NCBI GenBank assembly: GCA_937868725.1
Contig: CALMMQ010000115.1
Location: 1 to 49,952 of the forward strand
Source of the DNA: an uncultured Pleomorphomonas sp.
GTDB taxonomy: Bacteria; Pseudomonadota; Alphaproteobacteria; Rhizobiales; Pleomorphomonadaceae
DNA: 49,952 nt
Reading direction: 5' to 3'
Shown here: positions 6,312 through 19,917 of the stretch, in pieces
Numbering within the stretch: the first letter of the stretch is position 1
How the letters are laid out: each line of letters starts with the position of its first letter
Program-made: the position numbers and the translations under genes
Notes under the pieces: generated by a model
The model's input: only the letters and a program-made list of their open reading frames with translations
Told to the model about the DNA's origin: nothing
Database searches by the model: none

Positions 6312-7150
6312 GTGCGACTGGCGCCATAGGCCCGACCGAACCGGACTTCGAGCCGGTGCTGGACGATCTCGAAGATGATCGACATCATCCAGTAAAGGCA
6401 AGCCGCGGTGAGCAGCATTTCCATGTAGTGATACGTGGAGCGTCCGTAGGACTGGGCCAGGAAGTTGAGTTCCCAGAGCCCCATGAGCGATACCAGGGAC
6501 GAGTCCTTCAGCATCGACACGAACTGCGCCCCGGCCGGCGGGATGATGACGCGGGCGGCCTGCGGCGCCACGATGCGGGTTGCGATGATGTAGCGCGACA
6601 GACCGAGCGCCATGGCCGCCTCGCGCTGGCCGCGCGGGACCGAGGCGATGCCGGCCCGAATGGTCTCGGCCAGATAGGCGGCATAGTTGAGCGACAGGGC
6701 CATCACCCCCGACGTCAGCGCCGACAGGATGATGCCGAACTGCGGCAGCGCCAGATAGATCAGCAGCACCTGCACCAGCAGCGGCGTGCCCCGGAAGAAC
6801 GAGGCGTAGAAGGTGGCCGTGGCAAAGGCCAGTGGCTGCTGCGACAGCCGACCAAGCGCAGTCAGCACCGCCAGGGCCATGGCGCAGACCATCGACAGCG
6901 CCGTGACCAGCAGCGTCAGCACGATGCCCTGCACAAAGCCGGCTGGCGACAGGCGCAGACCAAGCATGAACGGCAGCTTGGACCGGATCAGTCCGAAGTC
7001 GAGGCCAAGCCGCTGCAGCCCCAGCGCCAGCACGGCCAGCAGGATGGCCCAGGTCAGCCAGACGCGGCCACGAAAGCCAAGACGCGGCCGATGCCAGGGG
7101 ACCGACCGCTCCAGGCGCGACGATGGCAGTTCGCCGGCCTCACTGGACAT
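6308..7150 (-). CDS. Amino-acid-type ABC transporter permease (HAAT/PAAT type)
   Basis: The 280-residue protein has several membrane segments and the His/Glu/Gln permease-family region: GTPLLVQVLLIYLALPQFGI in the middle, then an ETIRAGIASVPRGQREAA cytoplasmic loop that contacts the ATPase. It would form the channel of a polar amino acid importer. The ATG at 7150 overlaps the end of the binding-protein gene by 11 bases, which suggests translational coupling. Its stop codon TAG is supplied by the palindromic repeat. No ATPase gene follows, so the importer must borrow one. Cystine, methionine or another sulfur amino acid is a plausible but unproven substrate. Confidence 0.85.
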   Translation of the reverse strand: MSSEAGELPSSRLERSVPWHRPRLGFRGRVWLTWAILLAVLALGLQRLGLDFGLIRSKLPFMLGLRLSPAGFVQGIVLTLLVTALSMVCAMALAVLTALGRLSQQPLAFATATFYASFFRGTPLLVQVLLIYLALPQFGIILSALTSGVMALSLNYAAYLAETIRAGIASVPRGQREAAMALGLSRYIIATRIVAPQAARVIIPPAGAQFVSMLKDSSLVSLMGLWELNFLAQSYGRSTYHYMEMLLTAACLYWMMSIIFEIVQHRLEVRFGRAYGASRT

Positions 7151-7952
7151 CTTTGGTGATGTCCGTGTGGAACCACTTCTGCGAGATGGCGGCGATCGTG
7201 CCGTCGGCATGCAGGTCCTTGATGACGCGCGCCACCTCGGCGTTCCACTCGGCGTCGCCCTTGTCGGTAACGACGGCGTTCGGCTCGGCGAACAGCGGCT
7301 TGCCGACGATCTTCAGCTTGCCCGTCGCCTCGATCTGCCCCTGGGCCGTACCGGCCGAAGCGACGATGGCATCGAGGCGCACCCCCGGCCCCAGCGCCAG
7401 ATTCTGGAAGTTGACGGTTTCGTCACCCGGCACCGCCTGCACGTTGTCGAAGGGAAAGGCGATGGCCGCCTGACCGGGGATGGAGAAGTTGCGGTTGACG
7501 TAGGCCTCGTAGGACGAACCGGTGCCGACGCCGACCTTCTTGTCGGTGATGTCCTTGACCGACGTAATCGCCGTCTCGTCCTTGTTGACGACGAGAACGG
7601 CCGGCAGCGAGTAGTAGACGGCCGGGAAATCGACGACCTTGGCCCGCTCGTCGGTTGGCGTCGCCGAGGAAATGGCGACATCCCAACGCCCGGCCCATTT
7701 GCCGCCGATGATGGTTTCCCAGCCCGGCGTCTCGATCCGCAGCTTCACCCCGAGCTTCTGGGCGAAGGCCTTGGCCACGTCGACGTCGAAGCCGTCGAGA
7801 TCGTTGTTGTCGTTGATGAACCCGAACGGTGGGTAGTCGTTGACGACAACGTCGACGACCTCTCCCCTGGACTTGACGCGGTCCAGCGTTTCGCCCGCCA
7901 TGGCAGATGAGGCGACAAGGGCAATCGCAGCGGCAAGGCAGATGGTCTTCAT
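7140..7952 (-). CDS. Periplasmic amino-acid-binding protein (SBP family 3)
   Basis: The 270-residue protein starts with a Sec signal peptide (MKTICLAAAIALVASSAMA, cleavage near residue 19), followed by a family 3 solute-binding domain with VNDYPPFGFIND and DGFDVDVAKAFAQKLG. It binds a polar amino acid in the periplasm and delivers it to the overlapping permease. The ATG at 7952 follows a GAGGGA ribosome-binding site; an in-frame ATG at 7988 lacks one and would mask the signal peptide. The roughly 230 bases upstream should hold its promoter and do not contain the GATAG-type motif seen before other operons here. Confidence 0.85.
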   Translation of the reverse strand: MKTICLAAAIALVASSAMAGETLDRVKSRGEVVDVVVNDYPPFGFINDNNDLDGFDVDVAKAFAQKLGVKLRIETPGWETIIGGKWAGRWDVAISSATPTDERAKVVDFPAVYYSLPAVLVVNKDETAITSVKDITDKKVGVGTGSSYEAYVNRNFSIPGQAAIAFPFDNVQAVPGDETVNFQNLALGPGVRLDAIVASAGTAQGQIEATGKLKIVGKPLFAEPNAVVTDKGDAEWNAEVARVIKDLHADGTIAAISQKWFHTDITKDVQ

Positions 7953-8180
7953 GGCAGGCAGTCCCTCTTGGAATGGGTAGGTGGCCATCTTGCCGCTTCA
8001 CTTCGCCTTTTCCCAACATTTGCCGACCAATATCGGCCAAGGGCAGGGAAGATTATTGCGGCCGATGGCCCCGCCGGAGCAGGCGCCGACGCCAGACGCC
8101 GCGCCCAGTCGCAAACGCCGGGACGGGACCGGCGCCAGCCGATCCCGTCCGCGGAAGGTACCGCCACGGGCGGCCGCAGC

Positions 8181-9494
8181 TCAGAGGCGCGCCAGCGCCT
8201 GATCGAGATCGGCGATGATGTCGTCGGGGTTCTCGATGCCGATCGACAGACGCACCAGCGCCGGCGTCACGCCGGCCGCCAGCTTGGCTTCGGCGCTGAG
8301 CTGGCCATGGGTCGTCGACCACGGATGGATGGCCAGCGAGCGGGCATCGCCGATGTTGGCAAGGTGATAGATCAGCTTGAGATTGTCGATGAGCGCCAGC
8401 GCTGCGTCCTCGCCGCCCTTGGGCTCGACGCCGATCAGCGCGCCGAAACCGCCGGACAGATAGGTCTCGGCACGGCGACGATCCTCACCGGTCTGCAGTC
8501 CCGGGAAGACGACGCGATCGACCTTGGCATGGCCGTTGAGGAAGTCGGCCACCTTGATGGCGTTGTCGAAATGGCGGGCGAGGCGCAGCGGCAGCGTTTC
8601 CAGCCCCTGGATCAGCTGGAAGGCGTTTTGCGGCGCCAGCGCCGGCCCGAGGTCGCGCAGGATGGCGGCGCGGGCCCGGACGAGGAAGGCCACCGGCCCG
8701 CCGAGCGCCGCCGCCAGATCGACGTAGGAGCGATTGTCGTAGGCCGGGTCGGGACGGTTGATCAGCGGCTGACGATCGGGGAAATCGGCCCAGGGGAAAG
8801 TGCCGCCGTCGACGATGGCCCCGCCGATGGTGGTGCCGTGGCCGCCGATGTACTTGGTGGCCGAATAGACGACGATGGCGGCGCCGTGCTCGATCGGCCG
8901 GGCAGCGAGTGGCGCGGCCGTGTTGTCGATGATCAGCGGAATGCCGAGGGCGCGGCCGATGTCGGCGACCTCGCGGATGGGAAAGACGTTGAGGCGCGGG
9001 TTGGGCAGGCTCTCGCCGAAGTAGAGGCGGGTGCGCTCATCGCTGGCCCGACGGAAGTTCTCGGGGTCGCCGCTGTCGACGAAACGTGTTTCGATGCCGA
9101 ACTGCTTCAGCCGCTCCTTGAAGAAGTTGACGGTGCCGCCGTAGAGACCGGTCGAGGCGACGATGTTGTCGCCCGCTTCCACCAGCGACAGCACGGCGAC
9201 GGCGGTCGCCGCCTGGCCGGAAGCGACGCCGAGCGCCGCCACGCCGCCCTCCAGCGCCGCCAGCCGCTGCTCGAACGCGTCGGTGGTCGGGTTGGCAACG
9301 CGCGAATAGGTGTAGGCGATCTCCTCGAACCGCGAGATGCGCGCCGCCTTGGCCGTGCTCTCGAAGGCGAACGACGTCGACTGATAGATCGGCACGGCCA
9401 CCGCTGCCGTGGCGGGATCGGTGCGGAAGCTGCCGCCGTGCAGGACGAGACTGTCCTGGGCAAGCGTGGACTTGCTGGAAACCGGCGCGTTCAT
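8181..9494 (-). CDS. metY: O-acetylhomoserine sulfhydrylase (second copy)
   Basis: The 437-residue protein of the Cys/Met-metabolism PLP family has LVLHGGSFRTDPATAAVAVP at the N-terminus, YTYSRVANPT near residue 61, and the PLP lysine K214 in YSATKYIGGHGTTIGG. Length and insertion pattern match O-acetylhomoserine (thiol)-lyases. It differs clearly from the first copy at 3898-5202, so the two may prefer different thiols such as sulfide or methanethiol. Its ATG at 9494 follows GGAGAA and overlaps the stop of the small membrane protein as ATGA. It is thus the last gene of the SsuA/TauA-like transporter operon, tying uptake directly to methionine or homocysteine formation. Confidence 0.9.
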   Translation of the reverse strand: MNAPVSSKSTLAQDSLVLHGGSFRTDPATAAVAVPIYQSTSFAFESTAKAARISRFEEIAYTYSRVANPTTDAFEQRLAALEGGVAALGVASGQAATAVAVLSLVEAGDNIVASTGLYGGTVNFFKERLKQFGIETRFVDSGDPENFRRASDERTRLYFGESLPNPRLNVFPIREVADIGRALGIPLIIDNTAAPLAARPIEHGAAIVVYSATKYIGGHGTTIGGAIVDGGTFPWADFPDRQPLINRPDPAYDNRSYVDLAAALGGPVAFLVRARAAILRDLGPALAPQNAFQLIQGLETLPLRLARHFDNAIKVADFLNGHAKVDRVVFPGLQTGEDRRRAETYLSGGFGALIGVEPKGGEDAALALIDNLKLIYHLANIGDARSLAIHPWSTTHGQLSAEAKLAAGVTPALVRLSIGIENPDDIIADLDQALARL

Positions 9495-9814
9495 TCTGTT
9501 CTCCATGGTTCGTGGGCTGAAATGCGGGCGGGCCGACGCCGGGACAGCACGGCGCTCGCCACGAGCAGCCCGAAGGCTGCCCAGAACGCCTCGGGATAGA
9601 AGCGGGTGATCCCGAGAAAATGGCTGCGGGCGCACAGCGCCTGAGCCAGCGAACAGACGGCGCCATCGCGCGCCAGGCAGACAACGGCGTTGCCGAATGG
9701 CAGGCTGCCGCTGCCGATCAGCTCGCGGAAGACGATCCACCACCAGGCGAGGGTGGCGGCCACGGCCAGGATGGCGCCCCAGCTCAGGACGGGCAGCAGG
9801 CGGCGACTAGCCAT
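9491..9814 (-). CDS. Small membrane protein of unknown function (107 aa)
   Basis: This 107-residue protein has two probable membrane helices, about residues 9-32 and 74-92. Between them lies a loop with two Cys about eight residues apart (near 46 and 54) and a third near 61. I do not recognise the family. The gene starts 8 bases inside the end of the ABC ATPase gene and ends in an ATGA overlap with the sulfhydrylase, so it is coupled on both sides and surely a member of this operon. The likely periplasmic loop with three Cys could form disulfides or bind a metal. It may be an accessory subunit or a separate carrier for a small thiol. No function is assigned. Confidence 0.75.
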   Translation of the reverse strand: MASRRLLPVLSWGAILAVAATLAWWWIVFRELIGSGSLPFGNAVVCLARDGAVCSLAQALCARSHFLGITRFYPEAFWAAFGLLVASAVLSRRRPARISAHEPWRTE

Positions 9815-10598
9815 TGTCGACCCCCAGTTCAGCCAGAATCTGCCGTCTCAGCGCCACCAGATGCGGATCGGCGCGGTTGCGCGGATAGGCCCTGTCGACC
9901 GGGAACTCGCTGACGATGCGTGCCGGCCGGTCGCTCAGTACGACGATCCGCTCGGCCAGCAGCAAGGCTTCCTCGACGTCGTGGGTTACCAAGAGCGCGG
10001 TGAAGCCCACCGAGCGCCACAGCCGGACGAACTCGGTCTGCATGGCCAGGCGCGTCAGGGAATCGAGCTTGCCGAACGGCTCGTCGAGCAGCAGCAGTCC
10101 GGGATCGTTGACCAGCGCCCGCGCCAGAGCGACGCGCTGGGCCATGCCGCCCGACAGTTGCCGGGGATAAGCATCGGCGAAGGCTTCGAGCCGGACCAGC
10201 GACAGCGCCTTGTCGATCCGCGGCGCCTCGGCCGGCAGCAGTCCGCGCGCCTCGAGACCGGTGGCGACATTGCGCCGCACCGTGCGCCAGGGGAACAGCG
10301 TCGGGTCCTGAAACACCAGCAGCCGCGACGGATCGGGGGCGACGATCGGTCGCTCGTCCTCGAGGAGACTGCCGCTGCGCGGCGGCTCCAGCCCGGCGGC
10401 GAGGCGCAGCAGCGTCGACTTGCCGCAGCCCGACGGTCCGAGCAGGGCGACGAACTCGCCCGGCGCCAGCTTGAGGTCGATGTCGGCCAGCACGTCCAGC
10501 GGATGGCCGGCGATGTCGTAGGCGTGCGAGACGCCACGGAACTCCAGCGCCAGCGCGCCTTGCTGCCGGGCCGGCGACGGGGATTGCAGCGCGCCCAT
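9807..10598 (-). CDS. SsuB/TauB-type ABC transporter ATPase
   Basis: The 263-residue nucleotide-binding subunit has Walker A GPSGCGKST at 54-62, Q-loop Q97 in VFQDPTLFPW, signature LSGGMAQRVALARAL from 148, Walker B LLLLDEPF at 168-175 and the switch H206. It powers the nitrate/sulfonate/taurine-type importer made by its neighbours. Start (10598) and permease stop overlap by one base (TGATG). It is the only ABC ATPase encoded in this window, although three ABC importers are present, so it may or may not be shared. Confidence 0.92.
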   Translation of the reverse strand: MGALQSPSPARQQGALALEFRGVSHAYDIAGHPLDVLADIDLKLAPGEFVALLGPSGCGKSTLLRLAAGLEPPRSGSLLEDERPIVAPDPSRLLVFQDPTLFPWRTVRRNVATGLEARGLLPAEAPRIDKALSLVRLEAFADAYPRQLSGGMAQRVALARALVNDPGLLLLDEPFGKLDSLTRLAMQTEFVRLWRSVGFTALLVTHDVEEALLLAERIVVLSDRPARIVSEFPVDRAYPRNRADPHLVALRRQILAELGVDNG

Positions 10599-11596
10599 CA
10601 GATCAACTCCTTTTCCTGCCAGGAGAGCAACCGACTGCGCGCCACGAACAGCAGCTTGACGAGGCCCGAGCACAGCACGGCCATGATGATGATGGTGGCG
10701 TAGACGTTGGCGTAGGCCGAATAGGCGCTCTGGAAGGAGATGTACCAGCCGAGCCCGTATTTCGAGCCGAGCATCTCGGCCACCACCAGCACCGCGAACG
10801 AGTAGTAGAGGCCCATGAACAATCCGACGAAGACATGGCTGAGAGCGGCCGGCACGGCCACCTTGGCGACCAGGAACCATCGGCTGGCGCCGAGCGTCCG
10901 GGCGACGTCGTAGTACGACCGGTTGACCGACGACACGCCCGAAGCGGTCAGGATGGCGACGGGAATGCCGCCGGCCAGCGCCACCAGGAACACCGAGGCC
11001 AGAAACGTCGTCGGAAAGAAGAAGAACATCGCCGGGATCCAGGCGGTGGCCGGCACCGGCCCGATCAGCTTGAGCACCGGCATGCCCCAGTAGTTGACCC
11101 GCTCTGACCAGCCGAGCGCCACGCCGAACAGGAAGCCGACGGCAGCGCCGGAGAAGAAGCCGAAGGCCCAGAGCCGCAGCGAATAGCCGACGCAGATCAA
11201 AAGGCGCGGCCCGTCGACGACGTAGACGTTGAGCAGACCGTGCGGCGGCGAGAAGAACGGCTTGGGCAGCCAGCCGGTCTTGGCCGTCGTATACTCCCAG
11301 ACGAGAAACCAGACGCCGACGGCGATCAGCCACGGTCCGTAATGGACGAGCCGCCGGCCGACAGCGCCGAGGCGGTGCACACCGACCGACAAGGCGATGA
11401 GCCCGAGACCCACGGCGGCGGTGAGACCGGCGAACAGGCCGGCGCTGCCCCAGGGGATGACGTCAGGCAGACCGACCGTCACGCCGGCCGTCGCCAGCCA
11501 CAGCACGGCGGCCAGCAGGCCCTGACGCCACAACGGCAAGGTTCGGTCCGACGCGGCGATGAGATCCCCGTCGGCCGTGGAAGCAACATCGCTCAC
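10598..11596 (-). CDS. SsuC/TauC-type ABC transporter permease
   Basis: The 332-residue inner-membrane protein has extra N-terminal helices before the conserved permease core (RLLICVGYSLRLWAFGFF onward) and the cytoplasmic ATPase-contact loop around SYYDVARTLGASRWFLVAKVAVPAAL. It belongs to the nitrate/sulfonate/taurine permease family. The binding-protein gene lies 50 bases upstream and the ATPase gene overlaps downstream. Given the co-encoded sulfhydrylase, the substrate is probably an organosulfur compound; which one cannot be read from the sequence. Confidence 0.9.
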   Translation of the reverse strand: MSDVASTADGDLIAASDRTLPLWRQGLLAAVLWLATAGVTVGLPDVIPWGSAGLFAGLTAAVGLGLIALSVGVHRLGAVGRRLVHYGPWLIAVGVWFLVWEYTTAKTGWLPKPFFSPPHGLLNVYVVDGPRLLICVGYSLRLWAFGFFSGAAVGFLFGVALGWSERVNYWGMPVLKLIGPVPATAWIPAMFFFFPTTFLASVFLVALAGGIPVAILTASGVSSVNRSYYDVARTLGASRWFLVAKVAVPAALSHVFVGLFMGLYYSFAVLVVAEMLGSKYGLGWYISFQSAYSAYANVYATIIIMAVLCSGLVKLLFVARSRLLSWQEKELI

Positions 11597-11646: not shown

Positions 11647-12678
11647 TCAGGCAAGGATGTTGACGGTCACCCGCTCGGCCAGTTCCCTGGGGTCGGTGGT
11701 CGCATCCAGCACCTTGACGAACTTGAGATCCTCGGCCCCGAGCCGCACCTGTTCGATCAACTCGCGCCCGATCGGGTGATTATGGGTGACGAGGTTGCCG
11801 ATGATCTCGGTCAGGCTCTGCTGATCGAGGCCGGCCGGCTTGAGGTTTTCAAGATACCAGGCCGCCACCTCGTCCGGATGGCTGGCGGTGTATTCGTGCA
11901 CCTCGATGTTGGCGGCGGCCAGACGGCGGATGGCGTCCGTATTGTCCTTCAGGAACGGACCGTTGGCCCCGAGCACGCAGCAGCTGCGGTTCTCGAAGTA
12001 GCCGGTCTGGGAATCGGCGATGAGCCGGTAGTTGTGCTGCTTCTGGATCGAGTAGGCCCAGGGGTCGAGATGGGCGACGAGATCCGCCTCGCCCTTGGCC
12101 ACGGCCTCGCCCACCAGCTCGAACGGCGCCACTTTCCAGGTGATGCTGTCGGGATCGACGCCAGCCTTGGCGATCGCCACCTGAAACTGCAGCTGCGGCG
12201 AGGTGCCGAGGCCGTAGACGGAGATCGTCTTGCCGCCGACGTCAGCCAGCGTTTTGACCGGCGAGTCCTGCGGCGCCAGCAGTCGCAGGCAACCGCCGTG
12301 CGAACCGACGAACAGCTTGACGTCGAAGCCCTGTTCGAGCGGCTTCAGCCAGTCGCCGATCAAGCCAGCGCCGGCGTCGGCCTTGCCGGTGGCGAGCGCC
12401 TGGATCAGCGTCTGACCGCTGGCGCCCTGATAGAACAGCTCGACGTCGATGTTGTGCTTGGCGTAAAGCCCCTTGGCCACGCCGAAACCGAGCGGCGAAT
12501 GGCAGGCGGCGACCTCGGTCCAGGCCAGGCGGATTTTCGGGGCCGGGCCGGCGATGGCCGGGGAGAACAGCCGCCCGGCCCCCGCCGCGCCCGCCGTTGC
12601 CGCCACGGCGATGGCCGCCGCCGACTTCAGAACCGAACGCCTGTTTACCTGCGGCACGCCAGCTGCGTTGCTTGCCAT
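11647..12678 (-). CDS. SsuA/TauA-like periplasmic binding protein
   Basis: The 343-residue protein begins with a twin-arginine-type signal peptide (NRRSVLKSAAA, with cleavage after the AIA near residue 43). A NMT1/SsuA-like solute-binding domain follows, with GVAKGLYAKHNIDVELFYQG and ATGKADAGAGLIGDW. It would capture the ligand in the periplasm for the adjacent permease and ATPase. The ATG at 12678 is used because it directly precedes the Tat signal and has an AAGGAG upstream. An AAA-N3-GATAG-N-TTWT motif lies about 80 bases upstream. A sulfonate or neutral methylthio compound is plausible; the family also binds nitrate and thiamine precursors. Confidence 0.88.
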   Translation of the reverse strand: MASNAAGVPQVNRRSVLKSAAAIAVAATAGAAGAGRLFSPAIAGPAPKIRLAWTEVAACHSPLGFGVAKGLYAKHNIDVELFYQGASGQTLIQALATGKADAGAGLIGDWLKPLEQGFDVKLFVGSHGGCLRLLAPQDSPVKTLADVGGKTISVYGLGTSPQLQFQVAIAKAGVDPDSITWKVAPFELVGEAVAKGEADLVAHLDPWAYSIQKQHNYRLIADSQTGYFENRSCCVLGANGPFLKDNTDAIRRLAAANIEVHEYTASHPDEVAAWYLENLKPAGLDQQSLTEIIGNLVTHNHPIGRELIEQVRLGAEDLKFVKVLDATTDPRELAERVTVNILA

Positions 12679-13053
12679 CGGCCCCACTCCTTCAATCGGG
12701 GTTCCGGAATAGCGGAACGGATGGAAGTCTAGCCCAAGGCCGCGTTTGATCAATATAACCTATCAAATTTCTATTCTATAGTTCGTCCAACGGCGCAATC
12801 TCCGCCCACCGCAGCCGCCCTGGCTAGAAAACGGCTGCAGCCACGTACGAATGCGGACGGGACAGCGTCGCCGCCGCGATCACAGACGCTTTTCCGTTTG
12901 AACGGACGGAACCGGCCGCCAAGTCGCCGGGCCGTCCAATGTCGCGGAGCAATCGACAGCTGCCGGTCGCTCCGTCGTTGAGCCCGGTCTGCCCGGGGCC
13001 TATCACGGGGTCATCGAAATTCGCAGCGCCACGCTGCTCCAGGAGCTCCCGAG
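12679..13053. other. Divergent promoter region between the SsuA-like operon and the Met-rich gene
   Basis: No gene is evident here. An AT-rich tract at 12745-12785 sits just upstream of the minus-strand transporter operon and contains the shared GATAG-type motif. The part from 12800 to 13040 is GC-rich with no clear promoter boxes; the start of the Met-rich gene is preceded by a good AGGAG ribosome-binding site at 13040-13044. Confidence 0.5.
12752..12778 (-). promoter_or_regulatory. Candidate operator AAA-N3-GATAG-N-TTWT, SsuA-like operon
   Basis: Read on the minus strand, this AT-rich stretch contains AAATTTGATAGGTTATAT. Aligned without gaps over 27 bases it matches the site upstream of aapJ at 21 positions. 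The GATAG core (reverse of 12760-12764) lies about 82 bases before the start codon. Function as a regulator-binding site is inferred from recurrence, not known. Confidence 0.5.
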
Positions 13054-13380
13054 ATGACCCCCGCCATGAACATGCAGCCGATGATGCCCCAGATGATGTC
13101 GATGCCGATGATGAACGGCATGATGAACCCGATGATGGGCAACATGATGAACCCGATGATGATGGGCGGCATGATGCCCCAAATGATGCCCGTCATGATG
13201 GCCAAGATGAGCTGCGAGATGACCAAGACCGGTATGACCTGCGAGATGATGCCCATGGACGGCATGAGCATGGACATGTTCATGGACGGCTGCAAGCGCA
13301 TGATGGCCATGATGCAGGGCGGCATGCCCATGATGATGATGTGCGGCGGCATGCCGATGATGTGCTGCTGCGCCTGCTGA
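13054..13380 (+). CDS. Extremely Met- and Cys-rich 108-residue protein
   Basis: By count, 47 of 108 residues are Met and 8 are Cys, so about half the protein carries sulfur. The first half is a low-complexity Met/Asn/Pro/Gly region built of MM-N-P-MM-like repeats. The second half has MSCEM, MTCEM and a C-terminal CCCAC. There is no signal peptide. It is a real gene: AGGAG lies seven bases before the ATG, a Rho-independent terminator follows the stop, and the frame is unbroken. It is divergent from an organosulfur ABC operon and close to the mar genes. Two readings are possible: a sulfur or methionine store (or a sink made only when methionine is plentiful), or a soft-metal (copper) protein, since MxxM and CC motifs bind Cu(I). 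No family is recognised. Confidence 0.85.
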   Translation: MTPAMNMQPMMPQMMSMPMMNGMMNPMMGNMMNPMMMGGMMPQMMPVMMAKMSCEMTKTGMTCEMMPMDGMSMDMFMDGCKRMMAMMQGGMPMMMMCGGMPMMCCCAC

Positions 13381-13405
13381 GCGGCGCGCGCCTGACCAAC
13401 GCCAG

Positions 13406-13437
13406 AAGGGCCGTGGGCGATCCGCCCCGGCCCTTTT
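13406..13437 (+). terminator. Rho-independent terminator after the Met-rich gene
   Basis: AAGGGCCG-T-GGGCG pairs with CGCCC-CGGCCCTT around a short loop, with a TTTT run at the end on the plus strand. It lies 26 bases after the stop of the Met-rich gene and separates it from the convergent regulator gene. Confidence 0.8.
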
Positions 13438-13454: not shown

Positions 13455-14084
13455 TCAGACGCGCACTTCCTCGACGTAGGTCATGACCAGATACAGCACC
13501 GCCTCGCCGGTGCCGAGGTTGCGGTAGGCGTGCGGCACGTCGGCGTCGAACAGGACGGCATCGCCCTCCGACAGCACGCGCGGCGCGCTGTCGCCCACCG
13601 ACACTTCGACGGTGCCGGCGGAGACGACGAGGTTTTCGACCGTCCCCTGCTGGTGAGCCCCCGCGACCTCGCGATGCAGTCCGGCGAGGCGCAACTCGTA
13701 GAACTCCACCTTGCGTTCGCCATCGAACGGAAACAGGGCGCGCGACTGGAAACGACCTTCCGACGAGGTCAGCACCTTGGACTTGGTGCGCGACAGCACC
13801 ACCACGCCCCGCTCGGCCTCGCTGGCCAGCAGGGTGGCGAACGACACGCCGAGGGCGGTGGCGATCTTCCACAGCACCGATATGGTCGGCGCGCTCTTGC
13901 CGGTTTCGATCTGCCCCAGCATGGCGCGGCTGACGCCGCTCAGCCGGGCGAGCCGCTCCAGCGAGTGACCGCGCCGGGTGCGCAGCTTTCTGAGATTGTA
14001 GCCGACGATGGCCGGGATTTCCTCGGCGATGTCGGCTTTCACCGCCTCGTCGTCCCGGGGGACGGGAACGGCGCGCAGGTCCAT
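13455..14084 (-). CDS. XRE-family regulator with C-terminal cupin domain
   Basis: The 209-residue protein has a helix-turn-helix of the XRE type at residues 26-84 (NLRKLRTRRGHSLERLARLSGVSRAMLGQIETGKSAPT) and a cupin barrel at about 125-205 with GAHQQGTVENLVV and GDAVLFDADVPHAYRN. Such proteins bind an effector in the cupin and control nearby transport or catabolic genes. The ATG at 14084 has no ribosome-binding site of its own, but it lies two bases after the stop of a 54-codon ORF, so translation is probably coupled. It is well placed to control the Met-rich gene or the mar operon that starts about 670 bases away. Confidence 0.85.
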   Translation of the reverse strand: MDLRAVPVPRDDEAVKADIAEEIPAIVGYNLRKLRTRRGHSLERLARLSGVSRAMLGQIETGKSAPTISVLWKIATALGVSFATLLASEAERGVVVLSRTKSKVLTSSEGRFQSRALFPFDGERKVEFYELRLAGLHREVAGAHQQGTVENLVVSAGTVEVSVGDSAPRVLSEGDAVLFDADVPHAYRNLGTGEAVLYLVMTYVEEVRV

Positions 14085-14086
14085 GA

Positions 14087-14251
14087 TCAGCGACCGAGGC
14101 TGAAGGCCGGGACGTAGGTCCAGATCGGCACCCAGACCACGCTCGGCATCACCGGCGGCACCGTCATGCACGGCGTCTCGACGCGGGCGGCAGCGGCGCG
14201 AGCGAGACGAACTTCCGTGAGATCGATGACCTTGGCAGATTGAGCCGACAT
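14087..14251 (-). CDS. Small 54-residue ORF coupled to the XRE-cupin regulator
   Basis: An ATG at 14251 with AAGGG eight bases upstream opens a 54-codon frame that ends in TGA at 14089-14087, two bases before the ATG of the regulator gene. The peptide starts MSAQSAKVIDLTEVR, has an Ala/Arg-rich middle and ends in a hydrophobic Trp/Val/Pro stretch (VVWVPIWTYVPAF). I do not recognise it. Three facts support a real gene: a ribosome-binding site where the downstream gene has none, tight coupling, and GC-rich third positions. It may be a small regulator partner or a leader ORF that controls translation of the regulator. Confidence 0.55.
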   Translation of the reverse strand: MSAQSAKVIDLTEVRLARAAAARVETPCMTVPPVMPSVVWVPIWTYVPAFSLGR

Positions 14252-14757
14252 GATGATACCCTTGCAGCAGGACCCCTTGGCGGGATGGGAAAAAACTACC
14301 GATTGACTAGGATTTCCTCAAGCTCGGCCATTGCGCCCGCCGCCGCCGAAGAGAAAAAGAAACCCTGCCCTGGCCGCTTTCGCACATCAGCCGTTATGCC
14401 CGCCCGACCGGAGCCCACGGCCGTCCTTTTCCCCCGGGTGATTGATGGCCGCCCCCGGCAGGGCCGGCGACCCCGGCCCTTCGCCGCGGCGCCGCATAAG
14501 TAATATATATTAAGTATATATATTTATTGGACTTTTTGGGAACCGAATTTTGCTGGCGACAGCTGCCGCGGGCAAAAACTGTCCATGCCAGCCCAGAATT
14601 AGAATACAAAATCTATCGTCTTTTATGGCGGCATGATTTGTTGACTGTGAAGGCTGTCATTCGCCGAGCGCGATCCCCCAACACCGGCAGCCGGTTGCGC
14701 AGACGCTGTCGGGTTCTCGTCTGACCGGACCGTCGACACCAGTGCAGGAAGCGACGC
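14252..14757. other. Control region upstream of the nitrogenase-like operon
   Basis: This roughly 500-base region between divergent genes holds no convincing gene. A very AT-rich palindromic block (TAATATATATTA and neighbours) spans about 14499-14530, and a GATAG-type motif lies at 14603-14623. No -24/-12 sigma-54 promoter of the GG-N10-GC type was found, which argues against control by NifA. The mar start codon is preceded by AGGAAG. Confidence 0.5.
14603..14623 (-). promoter_or_regulatory. Candidate operator AAA-N3-GATAG-N-TTWT, mar operon
   Basis: Read on the minus strand this is AAAAGACGATAGATTTTGT, matching the AAA-N3-GATAG-N-TTWT pattern of three other promoters here. It lies about 140 bases upstream of the NifD-like gene, in the opposite orientation to that of the other three relative to their genes. 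Confidence 0.45.
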
Positions 14758-16275
14758 ATGGCCATCAATCTTCGTACACCGCAAGCCGAGACCCGCGACC
14801 AGCGCCTCGGCACGATCACCCAATGGGACGGCAGCGCACTCGAGCTGGCCAGGGATTCCGCCTTCACCTTCGGTTGCGGTCGCGATTGCGGCCCCGGCGG
14901 CAAGCGTCTTTGCGAGGCGAGCAGCCCGTATTCCCAGGCCTCGATGTGTGCCGAGCAGATCGCCGTCACCAATGCCACCATCATCAAGGATACGGTGGTC
15001 ATCCAGCATTCTCCGATCGGCTGCGCCTCCAGCCAGTCGCTGACCTCGCGCTATTCGCGCGATCTGGCGGCGCGGCGCGGCTGGAAGCCGGAGGATCCCC
15101 GCACCATCTGCACCAATCTCGGCGAGCAGGACATGGTGTTCGGCGGCGTCGAGCGCCTGGCCGACACCATCCGCGAAGCCTTCGAACGGCATCATCCGCG
15201 CGTCATATTCGTCGCCACTTCCTGCGCCACCGGCATCATCGGCGACGACGTCGACGGCACGGCCAGCCAGCTTGAAAAGGAACTCGGCATTCCCGTGGTG
15301 CCGCTGCACTGCGAGGGCTTCAAGTCGCGCCACTGGTCGAGCGGTTGGGACGTCATCGAGCACGGTATCCTGCGGCGGCTGGTGCCCGCCAGCGTCGACA
15401 AGCGCGACGACCTCATCAACGTCATCCACCTCGGCGGCCCCGACGTGTTCTCGCCGCTGCTCAACCCGCTCGGCCTGTCGGTCAATCTGGTCATGGGCGG
15501 CAATCCGATCGAGCGCCTTGCCGCCCTGTCGACGGCGTCGGCCACCATCACCATGTGTTTCGTGCTGTCCTATCTCGCCACCGGCCTCGAACAGGAATAC
15601 GGCGTGCCCGAGATCAAGGCGCCGCTGCCCTATGGCCTTGAGGCCACCGACAACTGGCTGCGCGATATCGCCCGCGTCACCGGCCGCGCGCCGGAACGGG
15701 TGGAGGCGGTCATCGCCGCCGAGCGGGCGCGCATCGCGCCGGAACTTGCCAGCCTGCGCGCCGCCCTCAAGGGCAAGCGCGGCTTCGTCGCCGCCGGCGC
15801 CGCCTTTGCCCACGGCCTGATCGCCGACCTCAGGGAACTCGGCATCACCGTCGACGACGCCTACTCCTTCCACCACGACCCGGTGGCCGACAGCCGCGAT
15901 CCGGAACAGGATTCGCTCGGCCATCTCGTTCAGACCACCGGCGACATCGAGCACTTCACCGTCAGTCCCGACCAGCACTTCCAGGCCCACGCCGCGCTGC
16001 TGCGCGCCAAGCCCGACTTCGTCATCTGCCGCCATTCGGGTTCGATGGCCATCCTGGCCGCCCGCATGGGCATTCCGGTGCTGCCGATCTTCTATTCCAA
16101 CGACGGGCTTGGCTACGAAGGCCTCCTGACCATCGGCCGGGCCATCAAGCGCGTGCTGCCGCGCCGCCGCTTCTACGAAGACGTCGCCGCCCATTCCGCC
16201 TTCCCCTACCAGCGCTGGTGGCTCGACGAAACCGATCCCTACGCCGCCATCGACACCGCAGCCGCCGCCGAGTGA
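14758..16275 (+). CDS. marD: NifD-like subunit, probable methylthio-alkane reductase alpha chain
   Basis: The 505-residue protein belongs to the nitrogenase component 1 family. Probable P-cluster ligands are C64 (ASMCAEQ), C89 (HSPIGCASSQ) and C156 (TSCATGIIGDD), spaced as in NifD. A probable cofactor Cys is C267 (TITMCFVLSYLATGLEQEYGVP), and HCEGFK at 184-189 matches the NifD CEGF block. The position of the NifD cofactor His appears to be F445 (IPVLPIFYSNDG), unlike true nitrogenase. An extra C40-x3-C44-x7-C52 cluster lies at the N-terminus. With no NifEN and a sulfur-gene setting, it best fits Mar, which cuts C-S bonds of methylthio compounds to give methanethiol. A different nitrogenase-like reductase is not excluded. 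An AGGAAG site precedes the ATG. Confidence 0.75.
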   Translation: MAINLRTPQAETRDQRLGTITQWDGSALELARDSAFTFGCGRDCGPGGKRLCEASSPYSQASMCAEQIAVTNATIIKDTVVIQHSPIGCASSQSLTSRYSRDLAARRGWKPEDPRTICTNLGEQDMVFGGVERLADTIREAFERHHPRVIFVATSCATGIIGDDVDGTASQLEKELGIPVVPLHCEGFKSRHWSSGWDVIEHGILRRLVPASVDKRDDLINVIHLGGPDVFSPLLNPLGLSVNLVMGGNPIERLAALSTASATITMCFVLSYLATGLEQEYGVPEIKAPLPYGLEATDNWLRDIARVTGRAPERVEAVIAAERARIAPELASLRAALKGKRGFVAAGAAFAHGLIADLRELGITVDDAYSFHHDPVADSRDPEQDSLGHLVQTTGDIEHFTVSPDQHFQAHAALLRAKPDFVICRHSGSMAILAARMGIPVLPIFYSNDGLGYEGLLTIGRAIKRVLPRRRFYEDVAAHSAFPYQRWWLDETDPYAAIDTAAAAE

Positions 16276-16288
16276 GCCGGAGACCGAC

Positions 16289-17698
16289 ATGAACATCCAT
16301 TCGACGCCGGACACCGAGTTCGCCGGCAACTTCACCACCTCGCCGGGACCGATCGAGCAGGTGCGCTACGCCTGCGCGCTCGGCGCCCTCACCTCGGTCA
16401 TCGCCATCGAAGCGGCCATTCCGATCACCCACTGCGGCCCCGGCTGTGCCACCAAGCAGTTTCATGCCCTCTCCGGCATCTCCGGCTATCAGGGCGGCGA
16501 ATTTCACGTGCCCTCGACCAACATCGGCAACAAGGAAGTGATCTTCGGCGGTGCCGACCGGCTCGACGAACTGATCGCCGCGACGCTGAAGGTCATGGCG
16601 GCCGAGCTTTACGTCGTCCAGTCCGGCTGCATCCCCGGCCTGGTTGGCGACGACGCCGAAAACCTCGTCAAGAGCTACCAGCGCCGTGGCATTCCCATCG
16701 TCTACGCCGATACGCTCGGCTATCGCGGCAACAACTTCAACGGCCACGAGACCATCGTCCGGGCCATCATCGACCAGTATGTCGACAAGGCGGCGGGCGC
16801 CAATCCGGCCAAGCGGCGGGGCCTTGTCAATGTCTGGGCGCTGCTGCCCTACCAGAACCCGTTCTGGCGCGGCGACCTTACCGAGCTGCGTCGTCTCCTT
16901 GAGGGCATCGGCCTTGAAGTGAACATCCTGTTCGGCCCCGCCTCGCACGGGCTCGACGAGTGGCGGGCCATACCGACCGCCGAACTCAATCTGGTGCTGT
17001 CGCCCTGGCTCGGACTGTCGATCGCCCGACATCTGCAGAAGACCTACGACCAGCCGCTGCTGCACCTGCCGGCGCTGCCGATCGGCGCCCGCGCCACGGC
17101 GACCTTCCTGCGCGCGATTGCCGCCGCCACCGGCCTCGACAGCGAGCGCGTCGAAGCGTTCATCGCCAGTGAAGAGAAGCAGTATTACCATTACATCAGG
17201 GATTTCGCCCACTTCTACTCGGGCTGCACAAGCCAATACCGCCTGCCGTCAGAGATCAACGTCGTCGGCGAAAGCGCCTACGTCCTGGCGATCGCCAGGT
17301 TCTTCGTCGGTGATCTCGGCCTCAACCCCGGCGTCTTCGTCATCACCGAGAACCCGCCGGACGAAGAGCGGGCCGGCATCATCGCCGCCTTCCGCGATCT
17401 GGCGCCCGGCGTCGACGCCACACCGGTGTTCGAGCCCGACGGCCACAAGGCGCGCGCCCTGATCAAGGCGCATCCACGTACCGGCGAGTACCCAATCGTC
17501 TTCGGCTCAACCTGGGAAGCGGCCATCGCCGGTGAAATCGGCGCCCCGCTGGTCGAGATCTCCTACCCCGTGACCGACGAAGTGGTCATCGCCCGCAGCT
17601 ACATCGGCTATCGCGGCGCGCTGCAGCTGCTCGAGCGCACCTATACCACCGTCGTCCGCCAGTCGACCGAGGAGAACCCGGAGGCGGCCGGACTATGA
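16289..17698 (+). CDS. marK: NifK-like subunit, probable methylthio-alkane reductase beta chain
   Basis: The 469-residue protein is the second component 1 subunit. Candidate P-cluster ligands are C29 (RYACALGA), C53 (THCGPGCATKQ) and C114 (QSGCIPGLVGDD), with the same spacing as NifK C70, C95 and C153. C49 in HCGPGC is an extra cysteine. It starts 13 bases after the alpha gene with a GGAG ribosome-binding site and should form an alpha2beta2 complex with it. It lacks the N-terminal extension of classical NifK, as is usual in nitrogenase-like enzymes. Its last codons overlap the next gene as ATGA. Confidence 0.75.
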   Translation: MNIHSTPDTEFAGNFTTSPGPIEQVRYACALGALTSVIAIEAAIPITHCGPGCATKQFHALSGISGYQGGEFHVPSTNIGNKEVIFGGADRLDELIAATLKVMAAELYVVQSGCIPGLVGDDAENLVKSYQRRGIPIVYADTLGYRGNNFNGHETIVRAIIDQYVDKAAGANPAKRRGLVNVWALLPYQNPFWRGDLTELRRLLEGIGLEVNILFGPASHGLDEWRAIPTAELNLVLSPWLGLSIARHLQKTYDQPLLHLPALPIGARATATFLRAIAAATGLDSERVEAFIASEEKQYYHYIRDFAHFYSGCTSQYRLPSEINVVGESAYVLAIARFFVGDLGLNPGVFVITENPPDEERAGIIAAFRDLAPGVDATPVFEPDGHKARALIKAHPRTGEYPIVFGSTWEAAIAGEIGAPLVEISYPVTDEVVIARSYIGYRGALQLLERTYTTVVRQSTEENPEAAGL

Positions 17699-18078
17699 CG
17701 ACCGCCCCCACACCGCTCCCCGCCACCGTGCGCGTTGCCATCGGCACCGCCTCGGGCGCCCGCGTCTCCGAGCATTTCGGCCACGCCACCCGCTTCGAAA
17801 TCTGGGATGTCTCCGCCAAAGGCAGTCGCCACGTCGAAACGCGCAACAACCGTCCGGCCTGCGGCTCGGGCTGCGACCGCGCCGACGAGGCGATGGACGC
17901 CTCCGTCGCCCTCGTTGCCGACTGCCGGGCCGTGGTGGTGTCACGCCTCGGCGAATGCGCCATCAACCGCCTGACGCGGCTCGGCATTCTGGCCTTCGAG
18001 ACCGACGACACGGTTGACGACACGTTGCGTCAGCTCGGCCGGTTCGACGGCCTGTTCGCTACGGAGACGGCGGCATGA
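17695..18078 (+). CDS. NifX/NafY-type cofactor-binding protein
   Basis: The 127-residue protein is a single dinitrogenase iron-molybdenum cofactor-binding domain. It has VRVAIGTASGARVSEHFGHA at residues 12-31 (H27 and H30 are the usual conserved positions) and cysteines C56, C60, C77 and C88. Such proteins carry the NifB product or related FeS clusters between NifB and the apo-enzyme. Many NifB proteins carry this domain at the C-terminus; here it is a free ORF that overlaps marK at its start (ATGA) and marB at its end (ATGA), so all three are translationally coupled. It probably hands the NifB cluster to the MarDK apo-protein. Confidence 0.8.
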   Translation: MTTAPTPLPATVRVAIGTASGARVSEHFGHATRFEIWDVSAKGSRHVETRNNRPACGSGCDRADEAMDASVALVADCRAVVVSRLGECAINRLTRLGILAFETDDTVDDTLRQLGRFDGLFATETAA

Positions 18079-19010
18079 GTGACCCATCCAGCAGCGCCTG
18101 CGCGGCGCACGCCATGCGGCAGGCGGCCATGGTGCCGGCCTTCCCCGACCTCGAAGGCCGGCATCCCTGCTTTTCGACCACCGCCGAAGGTCACGCCAAG
18201 GCGGCGCGACTGCACCTGCCGGTATCGCCGGCCTGCAACATCGCCTGTGCCTTCTGCCGGCGCGACTTCAACCGCGTCGAGCATCGTCCGGGCGTGGCGG
18301 CCCGGCTGCTGACGCCCGAGGACGCCGTCGGCGTCGTCGAGCGGGCGGTGCGCCTCATCCCCAACCTCGCCGTCGTCGGCATCGCCGGGCCCGGCGACCC
18401 GCTCGCCAGCCACCACGCCATCGCGACGTTCGGCCGCATCCATGCCCGCTGGCCGGACCTGACGCTCTGCGTCTCCACCAATGGCCTGATGCTGCCCGCC
18501 CGCGTCGGCGAACTGCGGGCCGCCGGCGTCACGACGTTGACGGTCACGGTCAACGCCGTCGATGCGGCGATCCAGGCGCAGATCACGCCAAAGCTGGCCT
18601 GGGAGCGCCGGCGCCTCGACGGCGTCGAGGCGGCCCACCGCCTGATCGCCAACCAGCTCGACGGCATCGCCAGAGCAGCCGAGCTCGGCTTCACCATCAA
18701 GATCAACACGGTGCTGATCCCGACCGTCAACGACCACCACATCGGCGACATCGCGGCGGCGGTGGCTGGCGCCGGCGCCCGTATGATCAACATCATCCCG
18801 CTGATCCCCGAGCATCACCTCAAGCACCTGCCCGAGCCGACCTTCGTCGAGCGCCACAAGGCGCGCGCCGCCGCCGCCGCCCATCTCAAGGTGTTCACCC
18901 ACTGCCAGCGCTGCCGCGCCGACGCCGCCGGTGTGCCTGGCCTCAGCGACTACACGCCCGAACTCTACGGCGACGACCTCGTGGCCGAGCCGACCTTTTC
19001 CCACGGCTGA
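18075..19010 (+). CDS. marB: NifB-like radical SAM cluster synthase
   Basis: The 311-residue protein has the NifB core: HPCFS at 30-34, the radical-SAM motif C54-x3-C58-x2-C61 (CNIACAFC), GIAGPGDP at 102-109 and the C-terminal HCQRCRADA with C277 and C280, which hold accessory FeS clusters. NifB fuses two [4Fe-4S] units and inserts carbide to make the 8Fe core. The NifX domain often fused to NifB is absent and supplied by the preceding gene. No NifE/N scaffold is encoded nearby, so the 8Fe product may be used directly, as proposed for Mar. The start overlaps the previous stop (ATGA). Confidence 0.82.
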   Translation: MSDPSSSACAAHAMRQAAMVPAFPDLEGRHPCFSTTAEGHAKAARLHLPVSPACNIACAFCRRDFNRVEHRPGVAARLLTPEDAVGVVERAVRLIPNLAVVGIAGPGDPLASHHAIATFGRIHARWPDLTLCVSTNGLMLPARVGELRAAGVTTLTVTVNAVDAAIQAQITPKLAWERRRLDGVEAAHRLIANQLDGIARAAELGFTIKINTVLIPTVNDHHIGDIAAAVAGAGARMINIIPLIPEHHLKHLPEPTFVERHKARAAAAAHLKVFTHCQRCRADAAGVPGLSDYTPELYGDDLVAEPTFSHG

Positions 19011-19041
19011 AACGTCATCGCCTACCAACAGGAGCAGTCTC

Positions 19042-19917
19042 ATGTCCCGCAAACCCAAGCAGATCGCCATCTACGGCAAGGGTGGCATCGGCAAGTCGAC
19101 CACCACCTCCAACATCTCCGCCGCGCTCGTCGAAGCCGGCTACAAGGTGATGCAGTTCGGCTGCGACCCCAAAGCCGACTCGACGACCACCTTGCGCGGC
19201 GGCGAATACATCCCCTCGGTCCTGGAGCTTCTGGCCGAGAAGCGCCGGGTCGACGCCCACGAAGCCGTGTTCAAGGGCTTCGGCGGCATTTATTGCGTCG
19301 AGGCCGGTGGCCCGCAGCCCGGCGTCGGCTGCGCCGGCCGTGGCATCATCACCGCCGTCGAGCTGCTGAAGCAGCAGCGGGTGTTCGAAGACCTCGACCT
19401 CGATTTCGTCATCTACGATGTTCTCGGCGACGTGGTGTGCGGCGGCTTCGCCGTGCCGGTGCGCGAAGGCATCGCCGAGCACGTGTTCACGGTGTCGTCG
19501 GCCGACTTCATGGCCATCTACGCGGCCAACAACCTGTTTCGAGGCATCGAGAAGTTCTCGTCGTCCGGTGGCGCGCTGCTCGGCGGCATCATCGCCAACT
19601 CGATCAACACCGACTTTCAGCGCGACGTGATCGAGGACTTCGCGGCCAGGACGTCGACGCTGATCGTCCAGTTTGTGCCCCGGTCGCTGACGGTCACCCA
19701 AGCCGAGCTGTCCGGCCGCACGACCATCGAAGCGGCGCCCAAGTCCGAACAGGCCGACGTCTACCGCGCGCTCGCTCGCCACATCGCCGCCCATGAGACC
19801 TCGAAGGTGCCGACCCCGCTCAGCCAGTCGGAGCTGCGCGACTGGTCGGCACGCTGGGCCGAGCACATCGTCCGCCTGGAAAAGGCCGAGCACGAACGTC
19901 CGCGCGTCGTCGCCTGA
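19042..19917 (+). CDS. marH: NifH-like iron protein, probable Mar reductase
   Basis: The 291-residue ATPase has the P-loop YGKGGIGKST at 11-20, the [4Fe-4S] ligands C97 (GVGCAGRG) and C133 (DVVCGGFA) and the conserved R100. It forms a homodimer that passes electrons to the MarDK complex with ATP hydrolysis. The ATG at 19042 with an AGGAG site is chosen over an in-frame ATG at 18931, which lies inside marB. It is the last gene of the operon. The operon order here is D-K-X-B-H, whereas the Rhodospirillum rubrum operon is named marBHDK. Confidence 0.82.
   Translation: MSRKPKQIAIYGKGGIGKSTTTSNISAALVEAGYKVMQFGCDPKADSTTTLRGGEYIPSVLELLAEKRRVDAHEAVFKGFGGIYCVEAGGPQPGVGCAGRGIITAVELLKQQRVFEDLDLDFVIYDVLGDVVCGGFAVPVREGIAEHVFTVSSADFMAIYAANNLFRGIEKFSSSGGALLGGIIANSINTDFQRDVIEDFAARTSTLIVQFVPRSLTVTQAELSGRTTIEAAPKSEQADVYRALARHIAAHETSKVPTPLSQSELRDWSARWAEHIVRLEKAEHERPRVVA

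Follow-up and report, generated by a model that had tools for sequence, protein, structure and literature searches.

A Met- and Cys-rich protein family with a linked XRE-cupin regulator in Pleomorphomonas and other bacteria: a possible reserve of sulfur amino acids

The Met-rich gene and its protein family

The stretch analysed here, called the window, comprises 49,952 nucleotides of contig CALMMQ010000115.1 from an uncultured Pleomorphomonas sp. On its forward strand (13054..13380, ATG to TGA) lies an open reading frame (ORF) for a Met-rich protein of 108 residues, 47 of them Met and 8 Cys (50.9% Met+Cys); five neighbouring proteins together have 18 Met in 1862 residues (1.0%). Our recount agrees with the numbers of an earlier reading of this DNA, which a model had made without database searches and which we refer to as the sequence-only reading. 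Convergent with the Met-rich gene runs a gene for an XRE-cupin transcription regulator of 209 residues (13455..14084, minus strand), and 2 bp upstream of the regulator gene a third gene encodes a small protein of 54 residues (14087..14251, minus strand). The regulator gene is situated between the Met-rich gene and a nitrogenase-like cluster and, like the small gene, had been missed in the sequence-only reading.

The ribosome-binding site AGGAG (13041..13045, plus strand) is found 8 nt upstream of the ATG, in agreement with the good site noted before. Between the two convergent genes a hairpin (13405..13436, plus strand) is, by its folding energy, a probable weak terminator, the region 3' of the Met-rich gene reaching -35.4 kcal/mol over a 73-nt stretch (z -2.24). 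Of the terminator claimed in the sequence-only reading the strong hairpin thus stands, whereas a strict terminator scan found none at this gene and the T run of the hairpin has four T only. A promoter/terminator consensus scan of the window gave no match. Rfam at gathering scores yields two tRNAs only in the whole window, which therefore contains no known riboswitch.

Judged by sequence comparison, the Met-rich gene is not a chance ORF, because homologues are known from other genera and phyla. In eleven pairs of relatives the nucleotide changes within the conserved domain fall 82 times on the third, 46 times on the first and 35 times on the second codon position of this frame. This bias is small when the window is compared with its two closest relatives (8:7:7 and 11:8:8, third:first:second), and about half of the codons of the gene are ATG, where a silent change is impossible. 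The gene is single copy, as no paralogue was found in its own genome at E<=10.

The homologue search proposed in the sequence-only reading revealed a family with members across several genera and phyla. Our working set consists of 43 loci (the window, L005-L036, L044-L047 and L063-L068) from Alphaproteobacteria, Rhodocyclus, a metagenome-assembled genome (MAG) of Burkholderiales, one other family of the phylum, and Myxococcota. Duplicates were left out of the counts (L001-L004, L037-L042 and L048-L062 except L050), and so was L043, which is the same place as L016 and was still included in a first clustering (35/38). Six close relatives (L014, L022, L025, L028, L064, L066) were removed before the neighbour scans and the sulfur-gene count. 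Alignment A6 stands at 132/133; the spurious window ORF 9690-10700 was left out.

A protein search in 60 genomes found the Met-rich protein in four, the own genome included. From genome contigs a profile-derived scan retrieved 32 loci, which is an undercount because the scan relied on two peptide patterns only. In the Rhizobiales these loci belong to Pleomorphomonas, Kaistia, Rhizobium, Phyllobacterium, Shinella, Mesorhizobium and other members of the order; further loci come from MAGs of Rhodovulum, Afipia and Magnetospirillum, from the Burkholderiales MAG and from Rhodocyclus, and the Myxococcota are represented by Sorangium, Polyangium, an Archangium MAG and a Myxococcaceae MAG. By whole-genome search the order yielded 6 genomes with the gene out of 297, the class 3 out of 385 (one of them doubtful), the phylum 8 out of 398 and the one other family 10 out of 79. 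The doubtful match of the class (G476, the same as L050; E=6.7e-4 over 28 positions) was excluded as a member.

In rhizobia 44 plasmid records carry the module. We opened three Rhizobium plasmids, and in two of them the Met-rich gene is mis-called in the public annotation, the real gene being hidden by an antisense ORF; the annotated hypothetical proteins on the opposite strand are located at L116:6958-7344 and L117:6847-7341.

Neither Pfam nor NCBIfam contains a family that matches the Met-rich protein at E<=1, and a PDB profile search found no sequence relative at the same threshold. Likewise, no description of the family is found in the open-access full-text literature searched, among the matches listed. 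By these comparisons the protein belongs to an unnamed family, and the earlier statement that no family has been described holds for Pfam, NCBIfam, PDB sequences and the open-access papers searched, PHROGs and PADLOC lying outside the search.

The 43 proteins comprise 5506 residues, of which 43.7% are Met; Met and Cys together reach 49.7 +/- 2.4% (range 43.3-52.9). Leu, Ile, Val, Phe, Trp and Tyr combined amount to only 110 residues (2.0%), and 2406 Met compare with 104 Leu+Ile+Val+Phe. In the alignment of the conserved domain (35 rows, mean pair identity 61%) we counted 11912 Met-Met pairs against 301 Met-Leu, 75 Met-Ile and 349 Met-Val pairs. Met and Leu, and also Ile, normally interchange freely in proteins. 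Because this exchange is rare here, Met itself is under selection. Extreme sulfur amino acid content kept under selection, as expected of a sulfur storage protein, was thus found in all 43 proteins. Length (80-175 residues) and N-terminal repeats are variable, and the composition is nearly constant.

The N-terminal part is built of repeats of the MNPMMGG, MPGM or MGMG type; it is nearly absent in L031 and reaches about 110 residues in L022. It is followed by a conserved C-terminal domain with the consensus C.M...GM.C.M.P..G...DMF..CC.RM..MM..GMP.MM.CGGMPMM. In the window protein residues 1-47 are of low complexity and predicted to be disordered, and residues about 50-104 form the domain. The AlphaFold model has a predicted local distance difference test score (pLDDT) below 50 at residues 1-47 and 99-108, and predicts a bb-a-bb core (b, strand; a, helix) with a pLDDT of about 75-80 over residues 51-90. 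When the domain was modelled alone, the mean pLDDT was 65.7 and the predicted template modelling score (pTM) 0.41. A Foldseek search of the PDB with this model gave no match at 0.001 (best E 0.87), a result that says little because of these low scores.

Several Met columns of the domain are invariant. Cys occupies the domain columns 14, 23 and 40 in 31, 33 and 33 of the 35 rows, none of the three being invariant: L019, L024, L028, L036 and the second domain of L035 have Tyr, Met, Val or Gly instead. In seven loci (L026, L035, L063-L067) two domains occur in tandem, with up to 15 Cys. In the second copy of L035 two of the usual Cys are replaced by Met and Val. MxM and MxxM patterns are present all along the proteins. 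In 37 of the 43 proteins, including the one from the window, the first 30 residues contain no Lys or Arg, so that on composition alone the basic N-region of a signal peptide is missing, and the Met-rich protein is probably cytoplasmic.

The linked regulator, the small protein and the promoter

The regulator matches HTH_3 (E=1.9e-16) and Cupin_2 (E=8e-11) and so has the architecture of SutR, with an N-terminal XRE helix-turn-helix (HTH) and a C-terminal cupin. It is convergent with the Met-rich gene and located 46-598 bp behind it in 39 of the 43 loci. The exceptions are three loci from Myxococcota without an adjoining regulator (L019, L028, L036) and L066, where the contig ends at this point; the genome of L066 has the regulator on another contig. 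In L068 an OsmC-like ORF, recognised by eye, is inserted between the two genes. In L125, which is not one of the 43 loci, regulator and Met-rich gene (about 6640-11340) are some 4.7 kb apart.

A profile of the module regulators was run on genome draws of the same size, which are the same genomes where listed. Within the order the six best scores (280-328 bits) belong to exactly those six genomes with the Met-rich gene, followed by 238 and 232 bits. In the one other family the ten best (269-280 bits) are again exactly the ten genomes with the gene, and the next score is 163 bits. Taken together, all 16 genomes that carry the Met-rich gene possess a regulator of the high-scoring subfamily, and none of the 360 without that gene does (Fisher 1.8e-28), a comparison to be read with the score cut set after the fact, some of the 16 regulators being part of the profile, at most 11 (order) or 41 (family) first-look candidates scored per genome, and the genomes not independent of each other. 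Lower-scoring relatives of the regulator exist, at E<=1e-40, in 21 genomes that lack the Met-rich gene. For eight of these (G107, G192, G071, G298, G168, G140, G1036, G1015) we inspected the surroundings and found neither a Met-rich ORF nor any convincing small ORF nearby. Of 14 genomes searched from the genus of the window, the two others that carry the Met-rich gene are alone in having a close regulator (83-84%); a relative at 33% is present in a third.

The small protein of the window starts with VIDL..R..R, has an end rich in Trp, Pro and Val, and matches the family profile with E=5e-15. In the family as a whole its ORF has about 55 codons and precedes the regulator gene, often with a short overlap of a few bases; the consensus is M..QTA.VIDL..YR..R...MVWVPVW.FVPV. 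With a profile built from 13 seeds, the seeds being counted, it was found at E<=0.01 in the module of 35 of the 43 loci, and in 33 it adjoins the regulator. Weaker matches occupy the same place in L026 (0.07), L064 (0.08) and L063 (0.5), and L020, L022, L035, L036 and L066 gave no match to the profile. In two loci without the regulator (L019, L028) the small gene directly follows the Met-rich gene. The three Rhizobium plasmids encode a homologue annotated as 'hypothetical protein', and a Pfam search of the small protein gave no credible match. From its gene linkage it is an unstudied partner which travels with the module even where the regulator is absent.

Ahead of the Met-rich gene we identified an element upstream of the promoter, CCGTCCAATGTCGCGGAGCAATCGAC (12932..12957, plus strand), which in the window reads TCCAATGTCGCGGAGCAAT and is the local copy of a family motif of approximately TCC-N8-GGAGGAAA. 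A similar element occurs 80-124 bp ahead of the ATG in 32 of the 43 loci; the pattern detects 31 of them, and the one in L005 was recognised by eye. It is followed in the window by a -35-like hexamer TTGAGC (12978..12983, plus strand) and, after a 17-nt spacer, by a -10-like hexamer TATCAC (13001..13006, plus strand). The offsets of both are kept in the motif loci: counted from the GGAG of the element, TTG stands at +31 or +32 and TA at +54 or +55, each in 29 of 32 loci and both together in 28 of 32. At none of the other offsets scanned does TTG occur more than twice or TA more than four times. The spacer between the hexamers measures 17 nt in 27 and 16 nt in five of these loci. A promoter of fixed geometry is thus found in 28 of all 43 loci. 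In L006, L010, L013, L015 and L017 the element occurs twice: a second copy, of varying strength and in the same orientation, stands some 62 bp farther from the Met-rich gene, at about 182-187 bp ahead of it. A pattern search of the own genome gave one weak match elsewhere, the pattern being too strict since it missed even the site of the window.

The linkage of the genes suggests that the element is bound by the adjacent regulator. Its centre lies about 70 bp ahead of the expected transcription start, and upstream positions of this kind usually host activators and not repressors; from this position we infer that the regulator probably acts as an activator.

Among known proteins, the regulator is 35% identical to Escherichia coli SutR over 184 aligned positions, and its closest solved relative is 1y9q from Vibrio cholerae (E=1.4e-24). 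The His, Glu and His which we take to be the cupin motif align with those of 1y9q. SutR is a regulator of sulfur utilisation according to the title of reference 29 in PMC8464067, and 1Y9Q is reported in PMC7901475 with D-methionine in its cupin pocket.

Sulfur and copper genes in the neighbourhood

Divergent from the Met-rich gene the window encodes a substrate-binding protein of an ATP-binding cassette (ABC) transporter of the sulfonate type (11647..12753, minus strand). It matches NMT1 and belongs to the SsuA family, with 73.8 bits for SsuA_fam, below the cutoff of 163.5; the sequence-only reading had placed a divergent organosulfur ABC operon here. An ORF at 8181..9743 (minus strand) holds an O-acetylhomoserine sulfhydrylase from about residue 97 onwards (OAH_OAS_sulfhy, 528.2 bits, cutoff 495.1). 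The nitrogenase-like cluster, for which that reading gave a distance of 1.4 kb, indeed begins 1.4 kb away (14758..19917, plus strand). By profile scores it has NifD-, NifK-, NifB- and NifH-like parts; the first three remain below the nif cutoffs and the NifH-like part just passes (398.9 vs 394.35). This is consistent with a methylthio-alkane reductase; the name mar for the cluster comes from the sequence-only reading. Between the NifK-like and NifB-like genes lies an ORF of 127 residues (17695-18078, plus strand) which by eye resembles a cofactor protein of the NifX/NafY type. An AT-rich stretch with TATATA repeats (about 14490-14530), between the small gene and the cluster, is possibly a regulatory region of the latter.

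We searched by blastp for six sulfur families within 10 kb of the Met-rich gene: CysE, CBS/CysK-type proteins (PALP), pyridoxal phosphate (PLP) enzymes of Cys/Met metabolism, flavin mononucleotide (FMN) monooxygenases, SsuA-type proteins and DszC/SfnC-like proteins. At least one was found in 22 of the 37 less redundant loci compared with 2 of 40 random 20-kb regions (p=1.4e-7). For the single families the counts are 9 vs 1 (CysE), 8 vs 0 (PALP), 7 vs 0 (PLP), 10 vs 0 (FMN monooxygenase), 6 vs 1 (SsuA) and 5 vs 0 (acyl-CoA-dehydrogenase-like). The seeds came from other genus groups and were taken from these very neighbourhoods, which favours a signal; the opposite effect comes from loci that span less than 20 kb, as some do. 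The random regions derive from eight genomes carrying the Met-rich gene, three pairs of them overlapping by 18 kb, 4 kb and 0.2 kb. They were used because far neighbours are no clean control: in a Pfam bulk scan near and far neighbours were both rich in sulfur genes. An NCBIfam bulk scan was swamped by ABC ATPase models. In all three Rhizobium plasmids msuE, a gamma-glutamylcyclotransferase gene and tauA with its ABC partners are encoded within 7 kb of the module, and L009 and L035 have what we take by eye to be genes of taurine degradation (thiamine pyrophosphate enzyme, aminotransferase, ABC transporter). The sulfur link suggested from the window is thereby supported and widened, by these counts and by the SutR-like regulator tied to the gene.

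A copper-binding role was the main alternative of the sequence-only reading, which had named confinement of the relatives to copper-gene neighbourhoods beforehand as a finding that would refute a sulfur role. By a motif scan, which is weaker than a profile search, the relatives are not so confined: no hallmark of a CPx metal ATPase, a multicopper oxidase or an HMA domain was detected within 10 kb in the 43 loci. Two P-type ATPases in L035 are without CPC or CPH. A motif scan for the methionine sulfoxide reductases MsrA and MsrB gave no convincing match in the 43 loci, yet it missed an MsrB-like ORF seen by eye beside the Met-rich gene in L016. Next to the gene of the window no methionine sulfoxide reductase gene was recognised, MsrPQ being outside the profile searches.

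Proposed function and comparison with known systems

We suggest that the Met-rich gene is the payload of a three-gene module with a dedicated regulator, which would provide a methionine-responsive reserve of sulfur amino acids or an overflow sink for them; in our estimate this proposal could go either way. The protein would be a cytoplasmic and dispensable carrier of sulfur amino acids, with 55 sulfur atoms in 108 residues. Synthesis would take place when there is ample methionine or cysteine, and proteolysis would recycle the protein in sulfur shortage, which would describe a reserve or equally an overflow sink. The XRE-cupin regulator might use its cupin to sense methionine or a closely related sulfur metabolite; it would probably be an activator, working through the conserved element some 70 bp ahead of the transcription start. 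The protein of about 55 residues could be an accessory factor co-encoded with the regulator. The narrower version, in which half of the protein is Met or Cys held as a bacterial reserve and switched by its own methionine-sensing SutR-like activator, with the 55-residue partner, is more tentative and falls somewhat short of an even chance. We favour a reserve or sink because the near-constant sulfur density, the free variation elsewhere, the probable cytoplasmic location and the dispensability fit it.

Several observations weigh against this proposal. The C-terminal domain and its Cys are conserved in detail, more than a bulk store would need, and the distribution is sparse (6/297, 3/385 and 8/398 genomes for order, class and phylum). 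Many of the neighbours (genes for sulfonate, taurine and methanesulfonate use and the mar genes) serve scavenging; sulfur starvation should switch such genes on but a store off. Fifteen of the 37 loci are without any counted sulfur family, and cystine-type binding proteins are not enriched (5/37 vs 2/40, p 0.18). The element was not found in 11 of the 43 loci (L019, L026, L028, L031, L035, L046, L063-L067), and when looked for across the loci ahead of the regulator gene it appeared in L011 only. The XRE-cupin regulators of Pseudomonas aeruginosa are described in PMC7901475 as local repressors of neighbouring genes which mostly bind core promoters; here the element is situated upstream of the -35 hexamer.

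The Cys conserved in nearly all rows, the MxM/MxxM patterns and the predicted bb-a-bb fold would also suit a metal site of Met and Cys, with a cupin regulator responding to metal or thiol state. We consider this unlikely, as copper hallmarks are missing from the 43 neighbourhoods (in a scan that is not exhaustive and overlooked an MsrB), the Cys columns are substituted in five loci, and the near-complete loss of Leu, Ile and Val is not explained by a metal site. A sacrificial antioxidant, whose Met would absorb oxidants and be repaired by methionine sulfoxide reductases, has parallels in the MrpX/BcrX systems, since Met-rich proteins of such use exist (PMC8315932), and it could draw on the MsrB-like gene in L016, the OsmC-like ORF in L068 and a DsbA family gene in all three Rhizobium plasmids. 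It is nevertheless rather improbable: of seven loci viewed by eye only L016 has an MsrB, the basic start of a signal peptide is missing whereas the Azospira peptide is periplasmic by a title cited there, and no NCBIfam match exists at E<=1. In a structural role a flexible, hydrophobic, Met-rich surface would, like other Met-rich low-complexity regions, bind the Trp/Pro-rich small protein, the regulator or a membrane. The predicted disorder of the N-terminal part agrees with it, as does the small protein being linked to 35 of the 43 loci, L019 and L028 included; a near-constant sulfur fraction over a two-fold range of lengths is not expected for a specific surface, and we regard such a role as distinctly improbable.

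The sequence-only reading had left the choice between a store, a sink and a translational sensor. In a sensor the run of Met codons would tie synthesis to charged Met-tRNA, and the product or its absence would inform the regulator, in line with Met codons kept throughout and a regulator genetically tied to the gene. Attenuation in cis is not expected because the two genes are convergent, and the conserved domain, duplicated in tandem in seven loci, exceeds the need of a leader peptide, so that a sensor has a very small chance. A store or sink fits better because Met replaces hydrophobic residues even inside the conserved domain, although sequence can not separate the three. Metal site, antioxidant and sensor would each explain one part of the observations only.

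SutR and 1Y9Q share the XRE-cupin architecture with the module regulator. The latter forms a distinct high-scoring subfamily which in the genomes searched occurs only alongside the Met-rich gene, whereas sutR of E. coli K-12 is located between ydcO and rlhA without an annotated Met-rich gene. Small Met-rich bacterial proteins with a dedicated regulator are also known as MrpX and BcrX, the MXKDX peptides of Azospira and Brucella (PMC8315932). By description, not by alignment, the present proteins are set apart from these through the XRE-cupin regulator, about 44% Met and a conserved Cys domain, through a composition that argues against a Sec signal peptide, and through the missing match of the window protein to curated families (0 NCBIfam and 0 Pfam families at E<=1). 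The copper storage proteins (Csp) and other Met-rich copper proteins are likewise sulfur-rich with MxM motifs. In contrast to them we found no copper linkage (0/43 loci, motif scan), a predicted bb-a-bb core with disorder in place of a helix bundle, and no PDB sequence relative at E<=1.

Even if storage should prove wrong, a family whose members in different phyla consist of Met and Cys to about one half, and which comes with a linked regulator and partner, calls for an explanation. The module is compact, is found in workable rhizobia and predicts a ligand, an operator and a phenotype. Nearest among the matches listed in the literature, beside the MrpX/BcrX peptides, is the sulfur-sparing proteome of Rhodococcus, in which Cys- and Met-rich proteins are reported to be avoided during sulfate starvation (PMC8557817).

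In the open-access literature searched no bacterial protein dedicated to storing sulfur amino acids is found, among the matches listed. Plants possess sulfur-rich seed storage proteins, the Met-rich zeins and 2S albumins, in which an unusual Met content is kept as a reserve; papers deal with sulfur storage in maize seed and with Met in the seed storage proteins of Arabidopsis. The Met-rich protein, likened to them by description only, would work in the same way; the plant proteins differ in being eukaryotic, secreted and far less rich in Met. That bacteria store carbon, nitrogen and phosphorus in polymers is textbook knowledge. If our proposal is true, the module would add a genetically encoded reserve for sulfur amino acids, new in bacteria and built by replacing nearly every hydrophobic residue with methionine, and the protein would be for sulfur the counterpart of what cyanophycin is for nitrogen.
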